Shown piece after piece: positions 411 through 42,064 of a stretch of 64,000 nucleotides of DNA. This DNA comes from Coriobacteriia bacterium (GTDB taxonomy: Bacteria > Actinomycetota > Coriobacteriia > Anaerosomatales > PHET01), in NCBI GenBank assembly GCA_034370385.1, contig JAXMKZ010000005.1, forward strand, positions 124,001 to 188,000, in the 5' to 3' direction. Under the pieces are notes generated by a model. It was not told where the DNA came from and ran no database searches. It worked only from the letters and a program-made list of their open reading frames with translations. The translations under genes and the position numbers were made by a program. Positions within the stretch are counted from its first letter, which is position 1, and every line of letters starts with the position of its first letter.

Positions 411-426
411 ATACCCGTAGGGGTAT
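411..426. promoter_or_regulatory. CsoR/CstR-type operator (ATACCC-GTAG-GGGTAT)
   Basis: A perfect 6-bp inverted repeat, ATACCC and GGGTAT, is separated by 4 bp, 63 bp upstream of the transporter start at 348. On the minus strand its right arm runs into TATACG, a possible -10 box. The arms match known binding sites of the CsoR family (CsoR, CstR), which bind ATACCC-N4-GGGTAT-like sites and are released by Cu(I) or by persulfides. The same arms recur at 33113-33128. No CsoR-family gene is seen in the window. Confidence 0.65.
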
Positions 427-31879: not shown

Positions 31880-32275
31880 GCCTTCAAGGCCTCGGGCTGA
31901 ACACGTGACGGGGATGGCCTTCGCTGCGCCTGTGCGGCCCCTCACTAGGGCTATTCTCGGGAACTATCGGGCGAATCTTCGCTAGCGCCCTCATTCCCTT
32001 CAGGCTATCAGGCTTATGCCGGGCACCTTCGGCAAACGTCGGCACTGCAGGTGACTCGAAACACTCACTTCTGTTGCGCCCGATTCACGGGCACCTCTCA
32101 CACGCAAACGATTCTTCGACTTACGCTTACTCAAACGACGCTGCCGCAGGGCTTGAATCTGCCATCCCGGTCGTGTGTTCGACTTCCAACGTCGAATCCA
32201 ATTCGGGCGGGTCTCCTTTCGCAAGCCCATCGTGACCACGGGGTCACCCCCGCTCGCTATCAGTATTCCCCTTAG
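31880..32275 (-). ncRNA. Candidate structured non-coding RNA, unassigned
   Basis: About 400 bp with no protein-like frame but dense complementary segments. Reading the minus strand: GTGACC/GGTCAC near 32240; TTCGAC/GTCGAA near 32190; GCCCG/CGGGC near 32085; and a nested stem near 31960-32000 in which GGGAA/TTCCC encloses GGGCG/CGCCC. Loops on this strand are purine-rich (GCGAAAGG, AGCGAAG, CCGAAGG), as in folded RNAs, which is why I favour the minus strand. It starts just after the terminator of the selenoprotein gene and ends at a T-followed hairpin. I could not match it to tmRNA, RNase P, SRP or 6S RNA. The residual short frame at 32000-32239 looks like random translation. Confidence 0.5.
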
Positions 32276-32300: not shown

Positions 32301-32327
32301 CGAACGGCGCCCTTTGAGCGCCGTTCG
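32301..32327 (-). terminator. Hairpin downstream of the rhodanese-thioredoxin gene
   Basis: CGAACGGCGC pairs perfectly with GCGCCGTTCG around a 7-nt loop, 42 nt past the stop codon. On the minus strand it is followed by TCTGTTGTGTG, a weak T-rich tail. Confidence 0.6.
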
Positions 32328-32368: not shown

Positions 32369-33076
32369 TTACTGCAGCCCGTCGAGTGCCTCGGCCAGCT
32401 TCGCCTCCGGAGCGCTTCCCACGATCTGGCCCGCTTGCACGCCGTCCGCGTTCACGAAGATGAAAGTGGGTACACCGGTGACACCCAGCGAGTTCGCGAG
32501 TTGATTGGCGTTGGCGTCCGACTCGACGTTGAGCCGCCGGAACTCCACCTTGTCGCCGTACTTCGCCTCTAGCCCATCGACCACGGGCTTCATCTCGATG
32601 CAGGCGGGTCAACTGTCGGTGAAGAACTCGACCATCACGGGCTTGCCGCTTGTGGCGATGCGCTGGCTGTCCGCACCTTCAGCTGCATCGCCGGTCTCAA
32701 GGGGGTCGGGCCATGACGCGACACCGGCGCTCAGATGCGCGATGCTCGTGAATCCCAAGGCCCGCATGATGTCGACGGCGCTGACCGACCGATCGCCCGT
32801 GGCGCAGTAGACGAGGTAGGTTGCGTTCCTGTCCCAACTTGCGGCCTGTTGCTCCAACTGGTCCAGCGGAACGTTGATGGAGCCCGCGATGCGCCCGAGC
32901 TGAAACTCTCCGGGCGTGCGGACGTCGACGATCTGCGCGCCCTTCGCGATGACTGCCTTGGCTTCCTGCGCGTCAACGTTCTCTATGCCGCCCGCGGCGG
33001 GCCTGAAAAGATTCCAGCCGACGATTACCGCAGCGATCACTCCCACCACTATCCACACCATCGTCTTAGGTTTCAT
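32369..33076 (-). CDS. Membrane-anchored rhodanese-thioredoxin fusion selenoprotein (UGA at codon 156)
   Basis: From ATG 33076 (GAGGAG upstream) the frame runs 155 codons, meets UGA at 32609-32611, and continues open for 79 more codons to TAA. Reading UGA as selenocysteine gives 235 residues. Residues 7-25 are a membrane anchor. Residues 33-125 are a rhodanese domain with active loop YCATGDRS (Cys91). Residues 135-235 are a thioredoxin fold: VMVEFFTDS, then U-P-A-C-I-E-M-K-P-V at the place of the C-x-x-C active site, then GVTGVPTFIFVNADG with the cis-proline. A hairpin typical of bacterial SECIS follows the UGA. The fusion faces outside the membrane and would handle sulfane sulfur or persulfides. 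Its promoter holds a CsoR/CstR-type operator. Confidence 0.85.
32571..32609 (-). promoter_or_regulatory. Putative bacterial SECIS element
   Basis: Immediately after the UGA, the mRNA can form AGCCC/GGGCU (32585-32589 with 32571-32575) enclosing a 9-nt loop GUGGUCGAU that starts 24 nt beyond the UGA. The loop has G first and contains GGUC, as in the E. coli fdhF element. A competing stem CAUCGA/UCGAUG, extended by GCC/GGC, spans 32572-32606. Both fit the known placement of bacterial SECIS loops 16-37 nt after UGA. Confidence 0.65.
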
Positions 33077-33109: not shown

Positions 33110-33139
33110 AGTATACCCCCATGGGTATCCTGCTAGCAA
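33110..33139 (-). promoter_or_regulatory. Promoter of the rhodanese-thioredoxin gene with CsoR/CstR-type operator in the spacer
   Basis: On the minus strand TTGCTA (33134-33139) and TATACT (33110-33115) are 18 nt apart. Between them and touching the -10 lies ATACCC-N4-GGGTAT (33113-33128), the same 6-bp arms as the operator at 411-426. A repressor bound there would block RNA polymerase. The CsoR family member CstR regulates rhodanese and other sulfide-oxidation genes in Staphylococcus through such sites. Confidence 0.7.
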
Positions 33140-33238: not shown

Positions 33239-36200
33239 TTGCACGGCGAGGCTGAATCGGCTACCGAGATCCCGCGCGTCGTAGCGCAGGAGGACTTCCC
33301 GCTGCGCGCGGAGCTGCTCTCAACCGAGCGGCTGGCGGACGAAGCGCGCGGCGTTGCGGCGACCCAGCGCTGGACAACCGCCGACAAGCCCCGCACCACA
33401 CCGCTCATCGCACTCATGGCCAACGCCGCTCGCTCGCTCGCGTCGGACAACTCCGAGTTGAACCTCGCGGTCCGCCAGGGCCTCGCGGCTCCACCGGCTG
33501 GCGAGTGGCTCCTCGACAACTACTACCTCATCGAGGAGCAGGTGCTCCTGGTCCACGAGGACCTGCCGGCACGGTACGGCGTCGAACTGCCACGCTTGGC
33601 ATCGGGCGAGCACGCCGAGATGCCCCGGATCTATGACGCGCTGCTCACGCTCATCGCCCATACCGACTCCCGCCTAGACGAGGATCGCCTTCTGGCGTTC
33701 GTCGACGGCTACCAGGATGTAGCACCCCTTTCCATCGGCGAAGTGTGGGCCGTGCCGATCGTCCTGCGCATCGGAATCGTGGAGAACCTCAGACGTCTGT
33801 CTCGCGCTGTCGTGCTGTCTGAGCGCGAGGAGCGAGATGCTGACGCCTGGGCGGAAAGACTGCTTCTCACCGGCCAAGATGACCCGTCGCAGCTGCCGGC
33901 GCTCCTGGCCGAGCTCGATGTCGCCTCCTCGGGGCGTACTGCGCCGTTCTACGTGAGACTCTCCCACCGCCTGAGCGACCTGGCGCCCGGCGCCGGCACC
34001 GTCAACACGTGGCTCGAACATCGACTCCTCTCGGAAGGGATATCCCTCGACGAGGCGGCAACCGAAGCCCAGCAGCTCCAAGCCGCCAACCAGGTCTCCA
34101 TCGCCAATGCCATCACGGCCATCCGGTTCCTCGATGCCTACGGGTGGCGGGAGTTCTTCGAGCGCGTGAGCCTCGTGGAGGCGACCCTGCGCCACGACCC
34201 CTCTCACACCTACTCCGCAATGGGTTTCGAGAGCCGCGACCGGTATCGACACGCTCTTGAGGCGATGGCCCACCGATGTGACCGCACCGAGATCGAGCTG
34301 GCAGAGGAGGTCGTGTCGCTCTGCCGTGGCGCCTTGGTCGCCGATCCGGCTGACGAGGTGCGCGGCCACGTCGGCTGGTGGCTGATAGCAGGCGGCCGTC
34401 CCGAGCTCGAGCGACGGGTGGGTTATCGTCAGCGGAAGCGCGAGATGCTCTACCGCGGACCGTTGCGCAATCGCGGGCTGTTCTACGGCGGCACGCTCCT
34501 CGTGATGGAGGCCGTCTTGCTGGCAGTGACCGCGCTGCTCGCGTTCGGTGCAGGGGCCGAGTTGTGGCAAGCGACCGTTGTGGTGCTTCTGGCGGTGATT
34601 CCCCTCTCGGAGGTCGCCGTCGCTCTGATGAACCGGCTGGCCTCCCTCGTCTTCCCGGCACGATTGCTGCCCAAGCTCGACCACCGCGAGCCCGTCGGCG
34701 AAGATGCCCGTACCCTCGTGATCGTGCCGGCGCTGCTCTCCTCGCCTGCAGCGGCACGAAGCGTCATCGCCAACCTTGAAGTCGCCTACCTCGCGAACCG
34801 TGACGAGAATGTGGCGTTCGGCGTCCTCGGAGATCTGAAGGGGGCCTCAGAAGCCACGACCCCCGGTGACCACGCCGTCATCGAGGCGGCCGTTCAAGGC
34901 GTGTCCGAACTCAACGAGCGCTACGGGGCCGAGCACGGCGTGCGTCCGTTCCACCTGCTCGTCAGGGCACGAAGCTTCAACGAGCCCGAGGGAACGTGGA
35001 TGGGATGGGAGCGCAAGCGCGGTGCGCTCGTGGAGCTGGTGCGCGAGATGCGCGGCGACCCCAAGACCTCCTTCTGCGTGAGGCTCGGAGACGCCGACTT
35101 CCGGCGTTCGTGCGTGTACGCGATCACCCTGGACGCCGACACCCTGCTTCCTCGAGATGACGCGCGCAAGCTCATCGGCACCATCGCCCACCCGTTGAAT
35201 CGAGCGCGGCTCGAACACGGGGAACGGCGCGTGCGGCGTGGCTACGGGCTCGTACAGCCACGCGTCAGCATGACCATCAGCGGAGCTGCGCGGAGCCGCT
35301 ACGCGGCCCTCAACTCGGGCGTGCCCGGACTGGACCCCTACGCGAACGCCATTTCCGATACCTACCAAGACGTATTCGGTGAGGGGTCGTTCACCGGCAA
35401 GGGTATCTTCGAGATCGATGTGTTCCACGGGCTGCTTGAGGGCCTGTTCCCGGACAACACCCTACTCAGCCACGACCTGGTCGAGGGATCGTTCGTACGA
35501 ACCGCTCTGGCGAGCGACGTGGAGGTGCTCGACGAGTACCCTCCCAACTACCTGGCTGCGGCATCCCGGCTGCATCGCTGGATTCGTGGCGACTGGCAGA
35601 CCCTGCCGTTCCTCGCGCCCCGCCTTCGCGTTGCGGATGGCTCGGTGATCGACAACCCCCTCTCCGGCCTCCATAAGTGGAAGATCCTCGACAACCTGCG
35701 CCGGTCGGTCGTGCCGTTCGCCACCCTGCTTCTCGTGATCGTCGGCTGGGGACTTGTGCCCGAAGCCGCTCTCTGGTGGCCGCTCGCAGGTTTGCTCGCG
35801 GTCCTGTTCCCGGCGCTCTTCTCGTTCGTCGATGCGGTGGTCACGCGCCCGCGCACGCTCCCCCTGTCTGCTTCCTTGCCCGGAGTGGCGCGGGACCTCC
35901 GTTCGAACACCGTGCGGCAGTTGTTCGCGTTCTCGACGCTGCCTCACCAAGCCTACCTGGCCACCGATGCTGCCGTGCGCTCTGTCTGGCGGCTCTTCGT
36001 CTCGCATCAGCACCTGCTGGAATGGGAGACCGCCGCCGATGCGCAGGCTCGCGCAGGCACCACCCCACGGGCGTTCGTCCGGACGATGGCGCCCGCAGCG
36101 GTCATCGTATGCTTGGGGATTGTTGCGGTTGCGGCGCTGGTGCCGACGCGGTTTCTGACCGCACTTCCCGTGGCGTTGCTCTGGCTTGCCTCCCCCTTCG

Positions 36201-39200
36201 CGGCGTGGTGGCTATCGCAAGACACCCCTCCTGCGGCACCCGATGCTCTCAGTGAGCGCGAGACCTTGGCGCTGCGCCGAATCGCCCGCAAGACGTGGCG
36301 GTTCTTCGATGCGTTCGTCGTGGCCGACGGCCACCACCTCGCACCCGACAACTTCCAAGAATCCCCCGGCGGCGTCGTGGCATGGCGCACCTCACCCACG
36401 AACATGGGTCTGCAGCTGATCACCTACCTCGGGGCATACGACCTGGGGTACCTCACCCTGAACGGGATGGTCGAACGGGTCGCTGCCGTCCTGGCTTCGA
36501 TGGCAGGCTTGGACCGCTTTCGCGGGCATTTCTATAACTGGTACGACATCCGCACCCTCGAACCGTTGCACCCCGCGTACGTGTCGACGGTGGACTCCGG
36601 CAACCTCGCCGGTCACCTGCTCGTACTGCGCGTGGGACTGCTCGAGGCGAGCGAGGCGCCGCTTGTCGGTCCCCAGGTGCTATCCGGGGCTCGTGACGCG
36701 GTCCGCCTCGCTCTTGAGGACTTCGTCGCCGCTCAGGACCGGCTCGGTCCGGAGAGCGCGTCTCACGGCTGCCGGGAGGCGCTCGATGCCCTCGAGCGCG
36801 CTCTCTCCCTGACGGAGCCTCCGGCCGACCTCGGCGGGTGGAGCGCACTCCTGGTTCGCCTGACGGCTCTCGCTGATGAGGCCGTCGCCTGCGCGGCAGC
36901 GCTCTCCGAGCCGGGGCCGGACGCCTTCCCCGGCCCCCACGAAACATCAGAACTCGCGGCGGACAGCCCCCCGGTGCCCTCGACCCCGCTGCAACGACTC
37001 CGCGCCTCAGTCGCGGATGCTTCTCGGGCCGTGCACCGCCCGCTGGAACTCGTGCTCGAACTCGCTCCGTGGGCCCGACGTCTGTCCGAAGTGCCCGGGA
37101 CGGTGCGCTCCGATGCCGACCTCCAGCCGCTGCTCGTGCACGTTCCGAGTCTGACAGGGCTGGCCGAAGGCCTCGGCGCGGTGCTGGCCGCCCTTGATGA
37201 GCACGCTGCGGGTGAGGATCGTGCGGTGGCGGCGTGGAGTAGCGCGGTGGCGGCGGGAATCCGGGAGGTGCGCCCGACGGCGGTCCAGCTCCTCGCACGG
37301 TTGCGCCTGAGCTCCGACATCGCGCGCGAGATGTGGGAACACACGGACTTCGGCATGCTCTACGACCCGCATCGGCAGCTCTTCTCCATCGGCTACAACC
37401 TCTCTGAGGGTCGCCTCGACGGCAGCTACTACGATCTTGTGGCGAGCGAGTGCCGGCTGGCGAGCTTCCTCGCCATCGCAAAGGGCGACGTGCCTCAGGA
37501 GCACTGGTTCCGCTTGGGGCGCTCGCTCACGAAGACGGCTCAGGGCCGCGCGCTCGTGAGTTGGTCGGCCTCGATGTTCGAGTACCTCATGCCGCTGCTC
37601 GTCATGCGCGACTGGCCCGGAACGCTGCTGTCCGAGACGTACCGCGTAGTGGTGGATCGCCAGATCGCGTATGGCTCCGACCGAGGTGTCCCCTGGGGCG
37701 TCTCGGAGAGCGCTTTCAACGCCAAGGATGTGAACCTCACCTACCAGTATCAGGCGTTCGGGGTCCCGGGGCTCGGGCTGAAGCGTGGGCTGTCCGACGA
37801 CATCGTCATCGCCCCGTACGCCTCGGTGCTGGCACTACCGGTGGCTCCTGCGGCGGTCACCGCGAACCTGGCGGCTATCCGCGAAGCGGGCGGAGAAGGC
37901 GCCTACGGCCTCTACGAAGCGCTCGACTACACCCCCGGTCGTGTTCCCGCCGGCCAGACGCGCGCGGTCGTTCGCGCGTACTTCGCCCACCACCAGGGGA
38001 TGAGTTTCGTCGCGCTCACGAACACGCTCGCCGGGGCGTGCATGCAGACCCGTTTCCACGGCGACCCGCTCGTCGTCTCCGCCGAGCTGCTGCTGCAGGA
38101 ACGGGTGCCCCGCAACGCACTGGTCGTGGAGCCCCACGTCGAAGAGGTCCGCGAAGTGCGGTCCGTGCGCGAACTGCCGCCGCCGGTCACGCGCACTTAC
38201 CCGGCAGCACCCACCGCCGTGCCCGCCACGCACTTCTTGTCCAACGGCCGCTATTCGGTGATGGTCACCAACGCGGGCGGAGGCTACTCGCGCTGCAACG
38301 ACCTTGCGATAAACCGCTACCGGGAAGACGTGACGCGTGACTGTTGGGGCACGTTCTTCTACGTGCGAGACGCCGAATCGGGCCACGTCTTCTCCGCGCC
38401 GCGCAACCCCGTACCGACCGCGCCGGACTTCTACCACGTCACGTTCGCGCCCGACAAGGCTGAGTACCACCGGACCGACGGCGACCTCGAGACGCACATC
38501 GAAGTGGCCGTGTCGCCGGAGGATGACGTCGAGGTGCGTCGACTGGCTATCACCAACCGCGGACGAACGCCGCGCTCCCTTGAGATCACGTCGTACTTCG
38601 AGATAGCGTTCGCCGCGCAGGGGGCCGATCAGGCGCACAAGTCATTCTCGAACCTCTTCGTGGAGACCGAAGCGCTCCCTTCGACGCACGCGCTGCTGTT
38701 CACCCGCAGGCCTCGCTCATCCACCGAGGAGCGGCTGTGGGGCCTGCACCTCGTGGCCTGCGACACCGGTGCGTGCGAGTGGTCGTTCGAGACCGACCGG
38801 GCAGCATTCCTCGGACGCCTTCGCGCACAGGATTCACCCGCAGCCGTCTTTGAGGGTGGTCCGCTCTCCGGCTCGGCCGGCGCGGTGCTCGATCCGTGCT
38901 GCGCCCTACGCCAGTCAGTGAAGGTGCCTCCCGGCGAGACGGTCCGTCTCGTCTTCGCCACCGGGGTCGCTTCCACGCGCGAAGCGGCGGTGCGTCTCAC
39001 CGAGAAGTATCACGACACCCATACGTGCCAGCGAGCCATCGACCTTGCGTGGACCGCGAGCCAGCTGGAGCTTCGGGACCTCGGCATCTCTCCGCGCGAG
39101 GCGGTCACCCTCGAGCGGCTCGCCTCGCGGCTGCTGCTTACCGACCCCTACTCGAAGCTCAAGATCAAGACGCCGTGCGAGAACGGACTGCGCATCGACG

Positions 39201-42064
39201 GGCTGTGGTCGATCGGCATCTCGGGCGATAACCCCATCCTGCTCGTGCGCGTCGAGGAGCTCGAGCACGCGCCGCTCGTTCGCCAGGCCCTGCTGGCGCA
39301 CCAGTACTGGCGCCACAAGGGGCTTGTGGCCGATCTGGTCGTACTCAACACCCGCCCGACGGGCTACGCCGACGAGCTTGACGATCGCCTGAGGCTGCTC
39401 GTGCGCACGGGCCACGCACTCCAGATGCTGGACAAGCCCGGCGGGGTGTTCCTGCGACGCTGTGACCAGATGCATCCTGACGTGCTGAACCTGCTGCTGT
39501 CCGTGGCGCGTGCGACACTCGACGGCGACGCCGGCACCATCGAACTCCAGCTCAACCGGCGCGGCACCTACCCGGAGATGCCCGACAGCTTCATCCGCTC
39601 GCGTGATCCGGAAGAGCACCCCGCATCCGCGCTCGAGCGTCCGATTCTGACTCACGACAACGGCATCGGCGGCTTCGATCCTAAGACCGGCGAGTACGTG
39701 ATCGTGCTCGAGGGAGAGCAGACGACGCCCGCCCCCTGGATCAACGTGCTCGCCAACCCCACCTTCGGCGCCACGGTGTCAGAGGCAGGCGCGGGCTGCA
39801 CGTGGGCGCTCAACAGCCACGAGAACCGCATCACCACCTGGAACAACGATCCCGTCACCGACGGGTCCGGAGAGTCTCTCTACATCCGTGATGAGGAGAC
39901 CGGCGAGTTCTGGAGCCCCACGCCCCTACCCGTGCGGACGCCAGGACCCTACGTGATACGTCACGGCCAGGGCGCCACCCGCTTCGAGCACACGACGCAG
40001 GGGATCCGGCACGAGCTTGACTGGTTCGTCTCCGCCGACGACCCGGTACGAGTGTGCCGCCTCACGCTCACCAACGAGGGTGTTCGCCGCAGGCATCTGA
40101 GTGTCACGCAGCTGGTCGAGTGGGTGCTCGGCGACTCGCGGTCCAAGGCCCAGCAGCTTGTCGTCACCTGGTTCGATGCCGAGGCTGACATCCTCACGGC
40201 ACACAACCACTTCAACTTCGACTTCCCCGGGAGATGCGCGTTTCTCGCCTGCGACCGCGAGCTGCACTCGTGGACCGCCAGCCGCAGCGAGTTCATCGGT
40301 CGAAACGGACGGGCGAGCGACCCCGCCGCCCTGCACCGCACGCATCTTGGCGGCACCTCGGGACGGTACCACGACAACTGCGGCGCGCTGATGACGCGCG
40401 TCGCCCTCGAGCCGGGCGAATCGGCCGAGGTCTCCTTCCTGCTCGGGCAGACGAACACCCTCGAGGAGTGTCGCGAACTGGTGGCACGGCTCAGGCGAAG
40501 CGGGGCCGTCACCTCCGAGCTCGCACGCGCCCGATCCTTCTGGTCAGAGTTGCTCGGCACCGTCGAAGTCGACACGCCCGACGACCGTCTCGACCTTCTC
40601 GTCAACGGCCGGCTTCTCTATCAGGTGACCGCCTGCCGCCTGTGGGGTCGAACGGCGACGTATCAGTCCAGCGGGGCGTTCGGTTTCAGAGACCAGCTCC
40701 AAGACGTGATGGCGCTCCTGCTTGTGCGACCCGATCTCGTGCGTACTCAGATCCTCGAGGCCAGCCGCCATCAGTTCCCCGAAGGTGACGTCCAGCACTG
40801 GTGGCAACCGTACTCGGGGCGCGGCGTCCGCACCCGCATCAGCGACGATCGACACTGGCTGCCACTTGTGGTCGCGGAGTACCTCGACGCCACCGGCGAC
40901 TACGGCGTACTCGACGAGAAGACCGCATTTCTGGACGCCCAACTACTTGCGCCGGACGCGGAGGACGCCTACCAGCAGCCGGCCGTGAGCGAGCAGGCGG
41001 TCAGCGTATACGAGCACTGCATCCGAGCGCTCGAGGCCGGACGTCCGACCGGTGCACACGGGCTGCCCCTCATGGGCGGTGGCGATTGGAACGACGGCAT
41101 GAACCGCGTGGGCCACGAGGGCCGCGGCGAGAGCGTCTGGCTCGCTTGGTTCCTCGGCCACGTGCTCATGCGCTTCGCCCCGGTGTGCGAGCACCGCGGC
41201 GAGATCGGGCGCGCCACCGAGTATCAGCAGTGGGCCACGACGCTTGCAGCGTCGGTCGAGGAGACGTCATGGGATGGGGCGTGGTACCGCCGCGCGTACT
41301 TCGATGACGGGACCCCGCTCGGCTCACGTGACAGCGAGGAGTGCCGCATCGACGCGATCGCACAAGCGTGGGCGACGATCTCGGGTCTCGGCGATCCCGA
41401 GCGGTCGGCCACGGCTCTGGACAGCGTCGAAGAGAAGCTCGTGCGGCGCGAGGATGGGCTGATCGCCCTGTTGACGCCCCCGTTCGACCGTATGGCTCAC
41501 GACCCGGGATACATCAAGGGCTACGTACCCGGCGTGCGCGAGAACGGGGGCCAGTACACGCACGCCGCGGTGTGGGTTGCGCTGGCCCACCTGCTGAGGG
41601 GCGACGGCGACGAGGGAGCGGCTCTGCTCGACCTCATCAACCCCATCCGCCACGCCTCCGATGCGGCGGGCGTCGAGCGCTACAAGGTGGAGCCCTACGT
41701 CATCGCCGCCGACGTGTACGCTGTCGCGCCCCACACGGGCCGAGGCGGCTGGACCTGGTACACCGGTTCGGCTTCGTGGTTCTACCGCGTCGCGCTCAAC
41801 ACGCTGCTCGGATTCCGCGTCCGAAGCATCGAGGGATCGCCCCACCTGTCGGTAGACCCGTGCATCCCCAAGCACTGGCCGCGCTACACCATGGCGTACC
41901 GCTTCGGGTCGACGACGTATGCGATCACGGTGGAGAACCCGCGCGGCGTCAACCGGGGAGTGGCGCACGTCTCACTGGACGGGGTGCGGTCCGATGCTCT
42001 CACGGTTCCGCTGACAGACGACGGTCGGCGTCACGAGGTCTTGGTCACCCTGCTCGGCGGGTGA
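33239..42064 (+). CDS. ndvB: Cyclic beta-1,2-glucan synthase (GT84-GH94 type)
   Basis: This 2941-residue protein is predicted to make cyclic beta-1,2-glucan from UDP-glucose at the inner membrane. The TTG start at 33239 follows GAGGGGG. Order of parts: N-terminal region with WLLDNYYLIEEQ near residue 90; membrane helices near 418-470; a glycosyltransferase 84 core (TLVIVPALL near 490, LDADTLLP near 631, FGEGSFTGKGIFEID near 714); helices near 821-870 and 948-990; a glycoamylase-like domain (GLQLITYLGAYDLGYL near 1056, FYNWYDIRTLEPL near 1098); two beta-sandwich regions; and a GH94 phosphorylase domain with GGGDWNDGMN near 2612. The length matches NdvB/ChvB. No exporter (NdvA) is next to it. 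The glucan could serve osmoprotection or surface coating. Confidence 0.92.
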   Translation: MHGEAESATEIPRVVAQEDFPLRAELLSTERLADEARGVAATQRWTTADKPRTTPLIALMANAARSLASDNSELNLAVRQGLAAPPAGEWLLDNYYLIEEQVLLVHEDLPARYGVELPRLASGEHAEMPRIYDALLTLIAHTDSRLDEDRLLAFVDGYQDVAPLSIGEVWAVPIVLRIGIVENLRRLSRAVVLSEREERDADAWAERLLLTGQDDPSQLPALLAELDVASSGRTAPFYVRLSHRLSDLAPGAGTVNTWLEHRLLSEGISLDEAATEAQQLQAANQVSIANAITAIRFLDAYGWREFFERVSLVEATLRHDPSHTYSAMGFESRDRYRHALEAMAHRCDRTEIELAEEVVSLCRGALVADPADEVRGHVGWWLIAGGRPELERRVGYRQRKREMLYRGPLRNRGLFYGGTLLVMEAVLLAVTALLAFGAGAELWQATVVVLLAVIPLSEVAVALMNRLASLVFPARLLPKLDHREPVGEDARTLVIVPALLSSPAAARSVIANLEVAYLANRDENVAFGVLGDLKGASEATTPGDHAVIEAAVQGVSELNERYGAEHGVRPFHLLVRARSFNEPEGTWMGWERKRGALVELVREMRGDPKTSFCVRLGDADFRRSCVYAITLDADTLLPRDDARKLIGTIAHPLNRARLEHGERRVRRGYGLVQPRVSMTISGAARSRYAALNSGVPGLDPYANAISDTYQDVFGEGSFTGKGIFEIDVFHGLLEGLFPDNTLLSHDLVEGSFVRTALASDVEVLDEYPPNYLAAASRLHRWIRGDWQTLPFLAPRLRVADGSVIDNPLSGLHKWKILDNLRRSVVPFATLLLVIVGWGLVPEAALWWPLAGLLAVLFPALFSFVDAVVTRPRTLPLSASLPGVARDLRSNTVRQLFAFSTLPHQAYLATDAAVRSVWRLFVSHQHLLEWETAADAQARAGTTPRAFVRTMAPAAVIVCLGIVAVAALVPTRFLTALPVALLWLASPFAAWWLSQDTPPAAPDALSERETLALRRIARKTWRFFDAFVVADGHHLAPDNFQESPGGVVAWRTSPTNMGLQLITYLGAYDLGYLTLNGMVERVAAVLASMAGLDRFRGHFYNWYDIRTLEPLHPAYVSTVDSGNLAGHLLVLRVGLLEASEAPLVGPQVLSGARDAVRLALEDFVAAQDRLGPESASHGCREALDALERALSLTEPPADLGGWSALLVRLTALADEAVACAAALSEPGPDAFPGPHETSELAADSPPVPSTPLQRLRASVADASRAVHRPLELVLELAPWARRLSEVPGTVRSDADLQPLLVHVPSLTGLAEGLGAVLAALDEHAAGEDRAVAAWSSAVAAGIREVRPTAVQLLARLRLSSDIAREMWEHTDFGMLYDPHRQLFSIGYNLSEGRLDGSYYDLVASECRLASFLAIAKGDVPQEHWFRLGRSLTKTAQGRALVSWSASMFEYLMPLLVMRDWPGTLLSETYRVVVDRQIAYGSDRGVPWGVSESAFNAKDVNLTYQYQAFGVPGLGLKRGLSDDIVIAPYASVLALPVAPAAVTANLAAIREAGGEGAYGLYEALDYTPGRVPAGQTRAVVRAYFAHHQGMSFVALTNTLAGACMQTRFHGDPLVVSAELLLQERVPRNALVVEPHVEEVREVRSVRELPPPVTRTYPAAPTAVPATHFLSNGRYSVMVTNAGGGYSRCNDLAINRYREDVTRDCWGTFFYVRDAESGHVFSAPRNPVPTAPDFYHVTFAPDKAEYHRTDGDLETHIEVAVSPEDDVEVRRLAITNRGRTPRSLEITSYFEIAFAAQGADQAHKSFSNLFVETEALPSTHALLFTRRPRSSTEERLWGLHLVACDTGACEWSFETDRAAFLGRLRAQDSPAAVFEGGPLSGSAGAVLDPCCALRQSVKVPPGETVRLVFATGVASTREAAVRLTEKYHDTHTCQRAIDLAWTASQLELRDLGISPREAVTLERLASRLLLTDPYSKLKIKTPCENGLRIDGLWSIGISGDNPILLVRVEELEHAPLVRQALLAHQYWRHKGLVADLVVLNTRPTGYADELDDRLRLLVRTGHALQMLDKPGGVFLRRCDQMHPDVLNLLLSVARATLDGDAGTIELQLNRRGTYPEMPDSFIRSRDPEEHPASALERPILTHDNGIGGFDPKTGEYVIVLEGEQTTPAPWINVLANPTFGATVSEAGAGCTWALNSHENRITTWNNDPVTDGSGESLYIRDEETGEFWSPTPLPVRTPGPYVIRHGQGATRFEHTTQGIRHELDWFVSADDPVRVCRLTLTNEGVRRRHLSVTQLVEWVLGDSRSKAQQLVVTWFDAEADILTAHNHFNFDFPGRCAFLACDRELHSWTASRSEFIGRNGRASDPAALHRTHLGGTSGRYHDNCGALMTRVALEPGESAEVSFLLGQTNTLEECRELVARLRRSGAVTSELARARSFWSELLGTVEVDTPDDRLDLLVNGRLLYQVTACRLWGRTATYQSSGAFGFRDQLQDVMALLLVRPDLVRTQILEASRHQFPEGDVQHWWQPYSGRGVRTRISDDRHWLPLVVAEYLDATGDYGVLDEKTAFLDAQLLAPDAEDAYQQPAVSEQAVSVYEHCIRALEAGRPTGAHGLPLMGGGDWNDGMNRVGHEGRGESVWLAWFLGHVLMRFAPVCEHRGEIGRATEYQQWATTLAASVEETSWDGAWYRRAYFDDGTPLGSRDSEECRIDAIAQAWATISGLGDPERSATALDSVEEKLVRREDGLIALLTPPFDRMAHDPGYIKGYVPGVRENGGQYTHAAVWVALAHLLRGDGDEGAALLDLINPIRHASDAAGVERYKVEPYVIAADVYAVAPHTGRGGWTWYTGSASWFYRVALNTLLGFRVRSIEGSPHLSVDPCIPKHWPRYTMAYRFGSTTYAITVENPRGVNRGVAHVSLDGVRSDALTVPLTDDGRRHEVLVTLLGG

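Follow-up and report, generated by a model that had tools for sequence, protein, structure and literature searches.

A predicted rhodanese-thioredoxin selenoprotein with a putative CsoR/CstR-type operator across one order of anaerobic Coriobacteriia

Does the in-frame TGA of a rhodanese gene in a Coriobacteriia bacterium end that gene, or does it encode selenocysteine (Sec) in the active site of a fused thioredoxin, and what would such a fusion do? The locus lies in a 64,000-nucleotide stretch of contig JAXMKZ010000005.1 (positions 124,001 to 188,000; called the window for simplicity, with coordinates given in it). Automatic annotation would divide the gene into a shortened rhodanese and a thioredoxin that lacks its beginning. 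If its TGA is read as U, the product comprises 235 residues with Sec at position 156. Read on the plus strand, the locus yields neither a rhodanese nor a thioredoxin, and this reading was discarded in favour of the minus strand. Its parts are as follows.

32369..33076, minus strand: rhodanese-thioredoxin selenoprotein gene (predicted), 235 codons plus TAA (ATG at 33076-33074, TAA at 32371-32369)
33005..33070, minus strand: N-terminal membrane helix, residues 3-24, predicted N-in/C-out from the positive N-terminus
32711..32971, minus strand: rhodanese domain, residues 36-122 (Pfam PF00581)
32804..32806, minus strand: rhodanese catalytic Cys91 (loop C-A-T-G-x-R-S, here YCATGDRS), Cys in 51/52 homologues
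32384..32665, minus strand: thioredoxin domain, residues 138-231, with Pro203 at the cis-Pro position (Pfam PF00085, alignment, model and fold match)
32609..32611, minus strand: in-frame UGA, predicted Sec156, at the first active-site position of the thioredoxin (U-P-A-C); TGA in the same column in 53/53 full-length homologues
32571..32589, minus strand: predicted bacterial SECIS hairpin, 7-bp stem and 5-nt loop GGUCG (32582-32578), 26 nt after the UGA, backed by covariation and controls
32301..32327, minus strand: 10-bp perfect hairpin directly 3' of the gene, possible terminator

The TGA at 32611-32609 is the only one in frame within the fusion. Pfam searches with the translated fusion gave 61.7 bits for PF00581 (cut-off 22.2) and 51.8 bits for PF00085 (cut-off 23.5). 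The rhodanese match is accompanied by the catalytic Cys loop, which is intact as the first-pass annotation had stated, and the thioredoxin match (residues 138-231) runs across the UGA, in line with the claim that the frame continues as a thioredoxin. The active site of the thioredoxin domain reads S-U-P-A-C, and U156, C159 and Pro203, residues that mark a PF00085 thioredoxin, are invariant in the homologue alignment. AlphaFold2 run with the family alignment predicted two folded domains (mean pLDDT 91.5) joined by a low-confidence linker at about residues 132-134, whose relative placement is not reliable given a pTM of 0.56. Foldseek searches with this model matched thioredoxins and a rhodanese.

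Homologues were sampled from 100 genomes drawn as relatives, 69 of them from the order. An intact full-length fusion was found in 51 of the 69, source genome included, giving 53 full-length loci with two copies each in two genomes; in one further genome (G019) the fusion is split over two frames of a short contig. All full-length homologues contain exactly one TGA, in the same column (53/53) and usually in the context T-D-W-U-P-S/T/A-C, and both halves are retained together with the UGA. Whether relatives without Sec machinery carry Cys at this column had been raised as a check: no Cys variant exists among the 53 full-length homologues of the order, and Cys does occupy the Sec column in a Persicobacter fusion (WCGSC) and in thioredoxins of the PDB. 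No full-length fusion was found outside the order among 397 genomes of the phylum. Judged by its sequence, the fusion is a selenoprotein that recurs throughout one order of anaerobic bacteria, probably OPB41/Anaerosomatales of Coriobacteriia. In one homologue (L029, G004:C17) Tyr replaces the rhodanese catalytic Cys and the Sec of the thioredoxin domain is kept.

The hairpin behind the UGA has a 5-nt loop, a 7-bp stem and a distance of 26 nt, all within the published limits for bacterial SECIS elements (loop 3-9 nt, stem 4-16 bp, G in the first two loop positions, 16-37 nt from the UGA; PMC13188914). A SECIS-like stem with a GGUC-containing loop at the right distance, as noticed in the first pass, was thus recovered, and the GGUCG loop is present in 48/53 homologues. 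Paired cells amounted to 95.9% compared with 88.0% in shuffles and 22-49% when the stem was slid, double changes in the stem numbered 27 versus 7.0 expected, the covariation score was 0.255 versus 0.097, and RNAalifold recovered the same stem unaided. In all 53 homologues the third base of the Pro codon is matched to codon +12 (CCT with AGG in 34, CCC with GGG in 17, CCG with CGG in 2), CCT and AGG being minor codons elsewhere in these fusion genes. Rfam searched at a relaxed threshold returned no known RNA over the fusion gene or its SECIS.

A genome that decodes UGA as Sec should encode the machinery, and selA, selB, selC and selD, the genes proposed for a search, do lie together here, in ~6 kb on contig C11 of the source genome (SelA 517.7 bits, SelB 356 bits, SelD 370.9 bits; tRNA-Sec 69.2 bits, typed by ARAGORN as SeC with anticodon TCA). 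A UGA in A-G-U-A-A-K (L018, minus strand, near 2394) marks SelD as a probable selenoprotein itself. A larger membrane protein of the genome (L204, G000:C51:206774-207049) ends in a second candidate Sec thioredoxin (STUPGC), and thioredoxin-only UGA paralogues recur among the relatives. SelA and SelB were not found in two near-complete MAGs, G053 (98%) and G055 (96%), in which the UGA fusion is present (e.g. L044, L094); a locus missing from the bin and a real loss cannot be told apart in these cases. In G012 SelA was not found and selB stops near a contig edge. No significant association emerged between the presence of SelA and that of the fusion (Fisher p 0.50), which reflects that both occur often and that many of the MAGs have gaps.

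The UGA at 32611-32609 is almost certainly read as selenocysteine by means of the hairpin directly downstream, because a single TGA is fixed at a redox-site column in 53/53 homologues, the selDABC cluster is present in the genome, the hairpin covaries within the SECIS limits and a Cys form exists elsewhere, which together are the marks of a bacterial selenoprotein. An in-frame stop taken alone might also mean a sequencing error, a pseudogene or an ordinary stop between two genes; the chance of such an artefact is negligible, since 53 independent sequences share the single TGA, the covarying hairpin and conserved downstream codons, and the same-column position in 53 sequences from 51 genomes excludes coincidence. 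The UGA could instead act as a selenium-dependent switch that gives a 155-residue anchored rhodanese without selenium and the full fusion with it, both forms being of use. The part before the UGA is indeed a complete anchored rhodanese domain and no homologue has reverted the UGA to Cys, but domain order alone would give the same and the short form bears no mark of selection, so that a switch is highly unlikely.

The fusion would be tethered to the outside of the membrane by its signal-anchor helix or, in some relatives, by a lipid anchor. In about 10 of 52 homologues a lipobox-like start (e.g. LAGC, LSAC) replaces the helix, and the other N-termini show a short positive stretch followed by one helix. 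Since anchor helix and lipobox replace each other, both domains very likely have an extracytoplasmic location.

Comparison with known systems indicates what is new in this layout. The first-pass annotation knew of no described family with it; the Sec form of the anchor-rhodanese-thioredoxin layout is indeed absent from NCBIfam 20.0 and from the 2026 prokaryotic selenoprotein inventory, whereas the layout as such does exist, with CxxC, in Persicobacter. The plasmid fusion of Persicobacter sp. JZB09 (L121 651-1412) has a lipobox-like N-terminus followed, as in the layout of the window protein, by a rhodanese and then a thioredoxin, and it shares 25% identity with the window protein over 194 residues, but it comes from a different phylum (Bacteroidota) and carries WCGSC where the window protein has UPAC. 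The Sec thioredoxin UxxC (PF00085), an experimentally supported family (PMC13188914), shares the common thioredoxin fold, Sec first and Cys three residues on, and a SECIS downstream; unlike the fusion, it is listed without an anchor or a rhodanese domain. Against the TrxA equivalog TIGR01068 the fusion scored 53.3 bits, below the cut-off of 96.8. TsoB (NF045694) is a rhodanese/DsbD fusion-like selenoprotein whose C-terminal part aligns with the thioredoxin domain of the fusion, but it has two Sec residues (UxxxxU) in a model of 572 positions with a cut-off of 805; the fusion, with one UGA, scored 31.7 bits and falls outside TsoB, and 25/52 homologues match this model weakly. Rhodanese-like selenoproteins forms 1-4 (PF00581, NF041203; PMC13188914) combine a rhodanese domain with Sec as here, but their Sec is listed in UxxS, UxxG and CxU, whereas that of the fusion is in the thioredoxin domain. 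Two further candidates were rejected: in the apparent rhodanese-redoxin fusions of Comamonadaceae (L053, L055) the rhodanese and the redoxin, a glutaredoxin, are encoded by different genes, and a Rhodococcus plasmid match likewise resolves into two ORFs, one for a rhodanese and one for a thioredoxin.

What the fusion is made for may be indicated by the region in front of it, where the following elements were found, together with a second copy of the operator elsewhere in the window.

33113..33128, no strand assigned: putative CsoR/CstR-type operator ATACCC-ATGG-GGGTAT, ATACCCATGGGGGTAT, upstream of the fusion (33128-33113)
33110..33139, minus strand: putative sigma-70 promoter, -35 TTGCTA (33139-33134), 18-nt spacer, -10 TATACT (33115-33110)
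411..426, no strand assigned: second perfect operator copy, upstream of an SBF (PF01758) transporter gene on the minus strand with its start near 348

ATACCC-N4-GGGTAT is perfect in 36/52 upstream regions and present with at most one mismatch in 45/52 (0.01 expected in shuffled upstreams); it is missing from 7/52. A TTG precedes the operator by 10-11 nt in 37 of the 45, and the operator's end overlaps with a TAT-A-N-T element. This would place the operator between the -35 and -10 elements of a sigma-70-like promoter, where a repressor would be expected to bind. Known CsoR-family sites are pseudo-palindromes with G/C tracts, several with TAC/GTA ends (PMC10318464), and the motif looks like an operator of the CsoR/CstR class. 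Seven perfect copies exist in the source genome with none for the reversed pattern, and sites were found in 67/70 genomes (1-9 each; reversed control 0 in all).

Six of the seven sites in the source genome front the fusion, trxA (also with a divergent membrane protein at the site), ccdA, a small ferredoxin, an FAD oxidase and the SBF transporter. The pairing of operator and SBF transporter recurs in other genomes of the order. Among 77 sites sampled across the order, 64 have one of these families within 150 bp: trxA with the divergent membrane protein 23, ferredoxin 17, SBF 10, CcdA 8, FAD oxidase 4 and the rhodanese-thioredoxin fusion 2, counts that are descriptive since the sites were taken as listed and the source genome supplied the family definitions. 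The fusion, trxA and ccdA would suit a set of sulfur-handling targets, and the SBF transporter and the ferredoxin may or may not belong to such a set; no classical sulfide-oxidation genes were seen at the operator sites of the source genome. CstR is a dithiol repressor controlling rhodaneses and a CoA-persulfide reductase (PMC9405070), and the Firmicutes CstR regulons (PMC9405070, PMC10318464) resemble the present one in combining a CsoR-family repressor that has a sensing dithiol with rhodanese-type targets, and the operator shares the G/C tracts with TAC/GTA ends. The target set differs: it comprises trxA, ccdA, a ferredoxin, an SBF transporter and a Sec fusion, at dispersed places in the genome.

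One PF02583 (CsoR-family) regulator was found in the genome, convergent with the operator-bearing trxA (L205 9459-9764, G000:C59; L123 1453-1758), and relatives of it adjoin trxA at the sampled trxA operator sites. This association suggests that regulator and operator belong together. The regulator carries the three conserved Cys residues C44, C73 and C99 (C-terminal KYSSC) and Ala69 four residues before the second Cys; position 69 is Ala or Ser, never His, in the copies read and Ala in 7mq3, while CsoR, InrS and an FrmR-like protein have His. PF02583 membership, two sensing Cys residues and the missing metal-binding His before the second are the sequence marks of CstR. The deposits 7mq1 and 7mq3, which show the same Ala/Ser pattern, are titled CsoR; we take these proteins to be CstR. 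The regulon could nevertheless sense copper or another metal through a CsoR proper, with the same fusion repairing metal-damaged thiols, and many PF02583 members are metal sensors. Such a role is quite unlikely in view of the copper-site His being replaced by Ala/Ser in all copies read and of the operator sites in the source genome, at which no copper pump was seen. The fusion is probably under CstR-type control: operator, regulon and regulator residues all point to a CstR-like thiol sensor that would repress by binding between -35 and -10 and most likely be released by persulfides or polysulfides; further candidate signals are copper and other thiol stress.

The best explanation, to which we assign a probability of about 0.55, is that the fusion is induced by persulfide, reduces sulfane sulfur outside the cytoplasm and draws its electrons from TrxA and CcdA. 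The operator in front of it suggests that its expression rises as reactive sulfur accumulates and that it would then help to reduce this sulfur at the cell surface. Cys91 would be loaded with sulfane sulfur, donated by thiosulfate, polysulfide or low-molecular-weight persulfides, to form Cys-S-SH. Attack of the nucleophilic Sec156 of the tethered thioredoxin on this persulfide would free sulfide and give a Sec156-Cys159 selenenyl-sulfide. CcdA, which shares the operator with the fusion as does trxA, could then re-reduce this bond with electrons from cytoplasmic TrxA. The odds for the sulfur chemistry in this form are about even.

The main rival is disulfide reduction for cytochromes: an extracytoplasmic Sec thiol-disulfide reductase, ResA/DsbD-gamma-like, would use CcdA electrons for c-type cytochrome maturation or protein repair, and the rhodanese would only regulate or protect. 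Such a task suits exported UxxC thioredoxins, CcdA shares the operator, and cultured relatives encode multiheme cytochromes (PMC9686372). A passive rhodanese, however, would not need its Cys, and the Cys loop is kept in 51/52 homologues; the CstR-like operator also points to sulfur. We consider this rival unlikely. The sulfane-sulfur reductase, for its part, would have a natural role at the surface, since one cultured OPB41 member grows on thiosulfate or sulfur as acceptor and produces sulfide (PMC9686372). Tentatively, and with less than even odds, the scheme may extend to an order-wide persulfide-sensing regulon in which electrons pass from TrxA through CcdA to a surface, all-Sec rhodanese-thioredoxin that serves as dedicated thiosulfate/polysulfide reductase in sulfur respiration or detoxification of anaerobic Coriobacteriia.

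The fusion adds a selenoprotein family for which no Cys form was found in its order. To our knowledge, nearly all selenoproteins have Cys homologues. As the conserved operator supplies a testable trigger and likely redox partners, it becomes possible to ask why an anaerobe would use selenium for extracellular reactive sulfur.

The direct neighbours of the fusion, a divergent 8.8-kb glucan-synthase-like gene (window 33239-42064), adjoining it in 40/53 loci, and a P-II gene downstream, are not informative for its function. The intergenic stretch downstream of the fusion (window 31898-32271), in which neither an Rfam family nor, by ARAGORN, a tmRNA was detected, is probably not coding, as it is ~70% identical to that of the close relative G001 with indels; it contains the tmRNA-like sequence TTGGATTCGAC on the minus strand.
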